Assembly (NCBI RefSeq): GCF_006210265.1
Contig: NZ_VCNC01000002.1
Location: 186,001-250,000 of the forward strand
DNA: 64,000 nt
Direction of reading: 5' to 3'
Source: Desulfovibrio sp. UCD-KL4C
GTDB lineage: Bacteria; Desulfobacterota; Desulfovibrionia; Desulfovibrionales; Desulfovibrionaceae
The position numbers and the translations under genes are program-made. Below the pieces are notes generated by a model. The model worked only from the letters and a program-made list of their open reading frames with translations, was not told the origin of the DNA and searched no databases. This document shows, one piece after another, positions 32,570-34,230 of the stretch (the stretch's first letter is position 1; each line of letters begins with the position of its first letter).

Positions 32570-33067
32570 TTAATTTTGATAAATCTTTTTATCTTCAATT
32601 CGATAATCTATTTTAGACAATAAATCAGCAATGTTGCTGCCATCAGGGAAAACAAGTTTAGGGTCAATTTCGGCGAGTGGGCAAAGAACAAATGCGCGGT
32701 CTTTTGCTCGTGAATGAGGAACAGTAAGATAGTCACCACCGTCTACAACTTCATCACCAAATAAGATTAAATCAAGATCTATAATTCGAGGGCCGTTAAT
32801 CTCTTTTTTAACTCTCTGCATCTGCCCTTCTACCGCTTGAAGCGTTGAAAGGAATCCCTGTGGAGACCATAGTTCTGGATCAACAGCAAATCGAACAATC
32901 TGGTTAGTAAACCAAGCTTGATCTTTTAGTCCCTGTGGTTCGGTAAGATATGTTTCTGACCAAAGTTCAGGGTCAATGCCTTCATATTTTTCCAGTCGTG
33001 CGACAGCTTCGTTTAAATTCTCATCGGTATCACCGATGTTAGAACCAAGACTGACGTAGACCTTTAT
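32570..33067 (-). CDS. folK: 6-hydroxymethyl-7,8-dihydropterin pyrophosphokinase with a non-canonical start
   Basis: FolK pyrophosphorylates hydroxymethyldihydropterin in folate synthesis. The full domain is present: KVYVSLGSNIGD at the start, a TEPQGLKDQAWFTN segment, and GPRIIDLDLILFG with the magnesium Asp pair. It reads openly from the dapL stop, but no ATG, GTG or TTG precedes the conserved start in this frame. Candidates are ATA at 33067 (overlapping the dapL TAA), or ATC at 33085 or ACG at 33082, just after AAGGAGG at 33090-33096. The given start is the ATA. An internal ATG at 32821 would lose half the domain. Confidence 0.85.
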   Translation of the reverse strand: MKVYVSLGSNIGDTDENLNEAVARLEKYEGIDPELWSETYLTEPQGLKDQAWFTNQIVRFAVDPELWSPQGFLSTLQAVEGQMQRVKKEINGPRIIDLDLILFGDEVVDGGDYLTVPHSRAKDRAFVLCPLAEIDPKLVFPDGSNIADLLSKIDYRIEDKKIYQN

Positions 33068-34230
33068 AGTTGGGAAATCCGTGATACTGCCTCCTTGAGT
33101 CTTTCTGTGTCTACTGTCAAAGATATACGGAAGTATCCTTCACCAGCAGGCCCAAATCCATTTCCGGGTGTAACAACGACGCCTGTTTCCTTGAGTAATT
33201 TAGATACGAATTCAGCTGAAGTATATCCTTCAGGAGTTTTTGCCCATACAAAGATGGATGCATCAGGAATTCTACAAGAAATATTAATTTTCCTGAGAGC
33301 TTCAACAACTACATCACGACGTTCTTTATAAATTGCACGAAACTCTTTGACATATGGTTCGCCATGCTTGAGAGCAGCTATTCCTGCCTCTTGAACAGCC
33401 TGAAACATACCTGAATCTACGTTTTCTTTAACCTTACCAAGTCCTGCAACCAAAGTTGCATTTCCGACAGCCATTCCGCAACGCCAGCCGGTCATATTAT
33501 ATGTCTTGGACAGGGAATGAAATTCGATAGCGACTTCTTTCGCGCCAGGAGTTTCAAGAATAGATTTAGGTTTTTTATTTTCATCGTAATAAACTTCAGA
33601 ATACGCTGCATCTTGCACAATTATTACATTATGTTTACGTGCTATTTCAACAATTTTTTCAAAAAAATCAGATGTAGCAGTAGCGGCAGTAGGATTGTTA
33701 GGATAGTTAAGGAAAATAATTTTTGCTTTATCCCATGTTGCAGCATCAATAGCATCAAGGTCAGGCAAAAAATCATTTTCATCTAAAAGAGGGATCAGTT
33801 TAACTTCGCCGCCTGCAAAATTACTTGCAACAGGGTAAACAGGGTAATTAGGAGATGCAACAAGAACAAGATCTCCAGGATTAACAAAAGCTAACGGGAA
33901 ATGTGCAATTCCTTCTTTTGATCCGATAAGACTGATAACTTCTTTTTCAGGATCAAGATCAACATTGAATCTTTCTTTGTACCATGTTGCAACAGCTGAA
34001 CGAAAGGTCAGAAGGCCAACATATGAAGGATATTGATGATTTTCCGGACGTTTCGCAGCTTCATAGAGAGCATCTATGATGAACTGTGGCGTTGGAAGGT
34101 CAGGATCTCCAATGCCGAGACTGATTATATCCACGCCTTGTGCGGCTACTTCAGATTTTAATCTGTCAATCTCCGCAAAAAGATAAGGCGGAAGCGTTGC
34201 AATCCGGTCGGCAAATTTAAATTCTGGCAT
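33064..34230 (-). CDS. dapL: LL-diaminopimelate aminotransferase
   Basis: DapL converts tetrahydrodipicolinate directly to LL-diaminopimelate with glutamate as donor, bypassing the succinylase steps of lysine and peptidoglycan synthesis. The 388-residue PLP enzyme contains SLGIGDPDLPTP, NYPNNPTAA and the PLP lysine K242 in HSLSKTYNMTGWRCG. These fit DapL-type class I aminotransferases, though general aspartate aminotransferases are close relatives. lysC and lysA in the same window support the lysine role. folK follows directly. Confidence 0.9.
   Translation of the reverse strand: MPEFKFADRIATLPPYLFAEIDRLKSEVAAQGVDIISLGIGDPDLPTPQFIIDALYEAAKRPENHQYPSYVGLLTFRSAVATWYKERFNVDLDPEKEVISLIGSKEGIAHFPLAFVNPGDLVLVASPNYPVYPVASNFAGGEVKLIPLLDENDFLPDLDAIDAATWDKAKIIFLNYPNNPTAATATSDFFEKIVEIARKHNVIIVQDAAYSEVYYDENKKPKSILETPGAKEVAIEFHSLSKTYNMTGWRCGMAVGNATLVAGLGKVKENVDSGMFQAVQEAGIAALKHGEPYVKEFRAIYKERRDVVVEALRKINISCRIPDASIFVWAKTPEGYTSAEFVSKLLKETGVVVTPGNGFGPAGEGYFRISLTVDTERLKEAVSRISQL

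Follow-up and report, generated by a model that had tools for sequence, protein, structure and literature searches.

A probable near-cognate AUC or ACG translation start of folK inside the end of dapL, conserved across genera of the Desulfovibrionaceae

Described near-cognate starts and the folK locus

To our knowledge, only a handful of bacterial genes have been shown to start outside AUG, GUG and UUG. The infC gene of Escherichia coli starts at AUU, with initiation limited by IF3 and with IF3 autoregulating its own synthesis. For Staphylococcus aureus, the available sections of PMC13009471 describe near-cognate starts with extended Shine-Dalgarno (SD) sequences in cvfC1 (AUU) and ccpN (AUA), both located by ribosome profiling and examined with reporters, the near-cognate start of cvfC1 being conserved among staphylococci and that of ccpN in S. 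aureus and Bacillus subtilis. The same sections give AUA as the start of S. aureus infC. A further gene of this kind is pcnB of E. coli, which starts at AUU. Concerning translational coupling and re-initiation in E. coli, the available part of PMC2268962 describes how ribosomes from an upstream gene feed the downstream cistron with the aid of an SD sequence; the reporters presented there relied on AUG or on anticodon-mutant initiator tRNAs, and no natural AUC or ACG start is named in that part.

The locus considered here lies on the minus strand of a 64,000-nucleotide stretch of DNA, hereafter the window, from Desulfovibrio sp. UCD-KL4C (contig NZ_VCNC01000002.1, positions 186,001 to 250,000). 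We assign a probability of roughly 0.85 to the reading that its folK gene is functional and that translation begins within the final dapL codons, at AUC (33085) and/or ACG (33082). By every feature tested (no canonical start, a conserved codon one base away from AUG, and a strong SD sequence at workable spacing), this candidate start is of the same kind as those of infC, pcnB, ccpN and cvfC1. Like cvfC1 and ccpN, as far as the available text describes them, folK combines a candidate near-cognate start kept across species with a strong extended SD sequence; unlike theirs, its start is predicted by sequence comparison, overlaps the upstream gene and alternates between AUC and ACG across genera. 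The likeness to infC and pcnB lies in the candidate AUN start, and infC in four loci of the window's own genus likewise reads ATA after GGAGG, whereas ACG, with its second-position mismatch, falls outside the AUN pattern. Furthermore, infC is autoregulated by IF3, whereas folK has no known link to this factor. With the E. coli re-initiation system, within the limits of the part available, the proposed folK arrangement would share the supply of ribosomes from upstream and the aid of the SD sequence.

No earlier report of a non-AUG folK start was found in the open-licence literature searched, and we know of no earlier case of AUC and ACG standing in for each other. Three aspects look new: the gene involved, the conservation of the site throughout the clade, and the exchange between AUC and ACG.

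The folK frame and its overlap with dapL

The folK (HPPK) frame runs on the minus strand from an in-frame TGA at 33142-33140 to the stop codon at 32572-32570; counted from the ATC and with the stop included, the coding sequence occupies 33085-32570 and encodes 171 amino acids. Reading of every codon back to the TGA revealed no ATG, GTG or TTG ahead of the conserved N terminus KVYVSLGSN (K codon 33064-33062), exactly as the initial annotation had claimed. The first canonical start in the frame is an ATG at 32821, located 106 codons in and yielding a product of only 83 amino acids, so that a start there would delete about half of the FolK enzyme. These 106 codons are the longest stretch ahead of a canonical start among 398 open frames of at least 100 codons; the survey took in 464 kb of the genome, made up of the 64-kb window and 400 kb of a single contig.

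The frame translated from ATC matches NCBIfam TIGR01498 with 110.3 bits (cut-off 54.1), profile positions 1-128 of 128 being covered by residues 9-142, and Pfam PF01288 with 106.3 bits (cut-off 25.7), over profile positions 1-116 of 116. In addition, residues 7-160 match the HPPK of the solved structure 2qx0_A with an E value of 1.2e-25. Judged by these full-length profile matches the frame is a complete predicted FolK, in agreement with the earlier view that the protein was otherwise intact.

Within the same 464 kb, at least 20 codons precede the first canonical start in 36 of the 398 frames. Nine of the 36 were scanned for protein families, which left 26 others besides folK outside the scan; four of the nine match a family and five match nothing. 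In the lysine aminomutase, catalase and aspartoacylase frames, the family match begins no earlier than about the first canonical start. A tyrosine recombinase/integrase frame on the minus strand (L198:392-1138, in the window's own genome), devoid of its N-terminal part and with the first canonical start 91 codons in, looks truncated.

The dapL gene, whose product of 388 amino acids matches LL-diaminopimelate aminotransferase in NCBIfam, occupies 34230-33064 on the same strand and ends with a TAA at 33066-33064. Both ATC (33085-33083) and ACG (33082-33080) precede this stop, and the folK start would therefore sit within dapL, in its -1 frame. ATC takes its A from the third position of a dapL Val (or Leu or Ala) codon, and the A of ACG is the last letter of a Ser (or Leu) codon. 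The putative SD sequence AAGGAGG (33096-33090), spelled by the dapL codons AAG GAG G.., is separated from ATC by 4 nt and from ACG by 7 nt, and an ATA (33067-33065) lies over the dapL stop; the initial annotation had placed all four motifs correctly. SD spacings in the window's genome, measured from uncurated starts, peak at 5-7 nt, spacings of 4 and of 7 nt both being represented, and the 4 nt between GGAGG and ATC are slightly under this commonest range; a survey of the 64-kb window alone gave only six cases, too few for such a comparison. SD spacing does not choose between ATC and ACG.

The two genes form a probable dapL-folK operon, ended by a predicted terminator-like hairpin of 12 pairs directly 3' of folK (32564-32534, minus strand, identified by pattern match). 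Also on the minus strand, positions 32088-31594 of the window harbour a shortened relative of fructose-6-phosphate aldolase, which matches TIGR00875 with 60.5 bits (cut-off 246) over profile positions 1-88 of 213.

Conservation of the start site and competing explanations

Of the 288 family genomes, 257 possess folK, and 133 of these, picked to cover genera, were fetched; exceptions may occur among the remaining ones. The main comparison set comprised 100 relatives from 22 genera with a dapL-folK overlap and took only loci with a same-strand dapL match in the fetched stretch. Five duplicates (L105, L106, L110, L118 and L119, which are the same places as L125, L126, L129, L132 and L124, respectively) were dropped, and L054, with GTT ACG at the site, was excluded because its dapL match ended early.

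Within the window's own genus (g1), the arrangement GGAGG-NNNN-ATC-ACG is kept in 17 of 17 genomes, that of the window counted, and five of the 17 have an in-frame TAG six codons before ATC, so that only ATC, ACG and later codons remain. The 100 overlapping loci comprise 28 with both ATC and ACG, 39 with ATC only (the next codon being CAG, CCG, GCG, TCG or CAA), 29, from eight genera, with ACG only (the preceding codon being GTC or GTT) and four with neither, which brings ATC to 67 and ACG to 57 loci. A canonical start is absent from 86 of the 100 loci (20 genera) in the interval that opens 20 codons ahead of the site, or at the in-frame stop, and closes at the conserved Y. Each of these 86 carries ATC, ACG or both at the fixed place, with GGAGG located 4 nt ahead of the first site position in 82 of them. 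No canonical start exists anywhere in the open frame of 63 of the 86 loci, the other 23 having one more than 20 codons upstream, and 26 of the 86 have an in-frame stop within six codons upstream of the site, which leaves little other room for a start. In the four overlapping loci that lack both codons, a canonical start stands nearby: ATG in L126 and GTG in L090, L129 and L133. Neither ATC alone nor ACG alone, taken as a universal start, fits all loci; 'ATC or ACG' does. On the dapL tree, five changes are needed to account for the presence of ATC and 12 for that of ACG, and since the genera are related, the 20 genera do not represent independent events.

The comparison strongly supports the non-AUG start put forward in the initial annotation. 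Its expectation that the candidate codons would recur in relatives held for ATC and/or ACG (all 17 genomes of the genus) and failed for ATA, which is variable. A clear ATG or GTG at this very position, which it had named as the contrary case, is found in none of the 100 relatives with the overlap. Fourteen of these relatives, the four with neither codon and ten of genus g5, carry a GTG or ATG somewhat later, at a distance of 6-8 codons.

In four loci of genus g51 (L125, L128, L130 and L132), dapL is missing from the fetched stretch, which reaches about 1.5 kb upstream. They read ATT, ATC, GTT-ACG and ATC-ACG behind GGAGG or AAAGGAG, and their leaders resemble the end of dapL, like a remnant. 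ATG and GTG are absent from the approximately 25 codons before the conserved folK N terminus in all four; L125 has no canonical start in its whole open frame, and in L132 a TTG precedes ATC by 15 codons, with GTG and ATG further up. Retention of a near-cognate codon outside the dapL constraint, though it is one base from ATG or GTG, speaks for possible selection on a weak start, in a small set in which the loss of dapL may be recent.

A TTGACA-like element was noticed by eye, unscored, upstream of folK in the same four loci. In L145 (G188), 39 nt separate the end of dapL from the conserved N terminus of folK, whose frame contains no ATG, GTG or TTG there, only ATA, ACG and CTG, possibly another non-AUG start. 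Non-overlapping folK genes with no ATG near the conserved N terminus are present in L122 (G021), L141 (G185) and L142 (G024). L149 (G288) and L150 (G294) are additional folK-like copies, each with an ATG next to the conserved N terminus, in genomes where the usual folK is present as well.

The position of folK in the -1 frame of dapL, together with an SD-like sequence inside dapL near its end, could also point to -1 frameshifting from dapL, stimulated by AAGGAGG and yielding a DapL-FolK fusion. We consider this very unlikely: an X XXY YYZ heptamer occurs in the last 12 codons, read in the dapL frame, of none of the 86 loci, the conserved element is a folK-frame triplet, ATC or ACG, that obeys the logic of a start codon and not that of a slip site, and the four g51 loci lack dapL in the fetched stretch.

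Stop-start overlaps are common in operons, and in ten loci of genus g5 a GTG or ATG that could act as the start follows ATC at a distance of 6-7 codons. A classical overlap of this type, with folK starting at the codon over the dapL stop (ATA in the window), is nevertheless even less probable than frameshifting. This codon is ATA, GTA, CTA, TTA, CTG or GTG among relatives, on account of which ATA, one of the candidates of the initial annotation, is rejected as the start; the ATA of the window is 22 nt after the SD sequence, the conserved positions are located elsewhere, and all ten g5 loci retain ATC.

The ATC/ACG pattern might instead be a by-product of DapL conservation and codon bias, and the DapL residues E-A-V/L-S-R are kept in several uncoupled relatives too. 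The codon counts make this extremely unlikely. Synonymous third bases are conserved, and the site is built from codons otherwise rare in dapL (GTA, TCA and TTA): with one locus taken per genus, the codon usage of dapL bodies predicts ATC or ACG by chance in 1.6 of 20 genera, against 20 of 20 observed. In genus g44, TTA accounts for 0 of 343 Leu codons in dapL bodies versus 12 of 12 at the site, and in g51, TCA accounts for 0 of 122 Ser codons in dapL versus eight of nine overlapping loci at the site, the ninth being L126 with its ATG. Across the 32 genomes of g5, a single codon is used throughout in only four of 235 unchanged-residue columns, two of the four being the GAG of the SD sequence and the GTA that makes ATC; in g1, one codon is kept in 14 of 266 such columns, six of which fall in the last ten codons. 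The corresponding values for g44 (38 of 126) and g51 (143 of 304) come from genomes that are closer to each other, so that the argument there is codon rarity and not conservation. Where dapL does not overlap folK, ATC occupies the same place in 0 of 15 loci and ACG in one of 15 (0 of eight and one of eight, respectively, among those retaining Ser there), leaving 14 of the 15 and seven of the eight without the pattern. As far as codon choice can tell, ATC/ACG is conserved beyond the constraint of the DapL protein.

Editing of ACG to AUG in the mRNA by C-to-U conversion, as in plant organelles, would suit the 29 of 100 loci that have ACG without ATC, but its chances are equally slender, as 39 of the 100 have ATC without ACG, where such a conversion cannot yield AUG. 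Decay of folK with loss of its start, or a sequencing error such as the base error envisaged in the initial annotation, has a negligible probability in spite of the missing ATG, since all 17 genus members agree, the frame is the sole folK match in its genome, folK is present in 204 of 205 good family genomes, and the FolK protein remains full length and conserved.

Possible initiation mechanism and significance

An AUC and/or ACG start of folK could operate as follows. The seven-base AAGGAGG within the dapL codons would position the 30S subunit at the folK start, where the ordinary initiator tRNA(CAU) would read AUC or ACG with one mismatch, and ribosomes finishing dapL about 20 nt downstream would probably supply much of folK initiation. 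Translational coupling of dapL and folK is plausible from their overlap; it may be dispensable, since four relatives keep a near-cognate codon with no dapL in the fetched stretch. The overlap can also explain why AUG is unused, because it would need a dapL codon starting with TG (Cys or Trp), and the DapL residues at the two site positions are Ser (Leu in g44) and Arg.

The infC gene of g1 (L164, L166, L170 and L171) reads GGAGGCA-TGA-GCT-ATA, with no ATG, GTG or TTG from the in-frame TGA to the conserved part, and by this sequence it is a predicted near-cognate AUA start of the type known for other infC genes; the translation system of this genus thus seems to use near-cognate starts. The initiator tRNA was checked by a search with the stem-motif pattern GGGCTNNNAACCC combined with ARAGORN, which is narrower than a full tRNA scan. 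The pattern gave three matches with CAT (L153-L155) and five with another triplet; ARAGORN called tRNA-Met (CAT) at L153 and L154 and no tRNA at L155 or at the five other-triplet matches. A changed initiator tRNA was rejected, a tRNA being called only at CAT copies of the initiator-stem motif.

According to the available part of PMC10158994, IF3 in vitro accepts nothing but Watson-Crick pairing at the first two codon positions and rejects weak pairs at the third. Such selectivity would make ACG, and by extension AUC, poor starts, and a low output of folK would be likely. Actual initiation at the site, the dominant codon, the coupling and a low or IF3-sensitive output are what we infer from these comparisons. 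We give even odds to the further proposal that ACG is a true natural bacterial start, conserved for folK in eight genera (29 loci) devoid of ATC, with AUC as its equivalent elsewhere; the two would interchange over evolution and be retained as weak starts even where the dapL overlap has been lost, so that weakness itself would be selected.

Gene finders that accept only ATG, GTG and TTG would report an 83-amino-acid folK fragment here, and automatic annotation may halve the gene. Rare codons kept in an overlapping gene offer a comparative signature by which near-cognate starts may be found without proteomics. The folK start would also offer a test of whether a strong SD sequence together with termination-reinitiation enables the use of codons that IF3 rejects in vitro. 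If the reading is true, a housekeeping gene of folate synthesis, conserved over many genera of one family, would join the bacterial genes with non-AUG starts.
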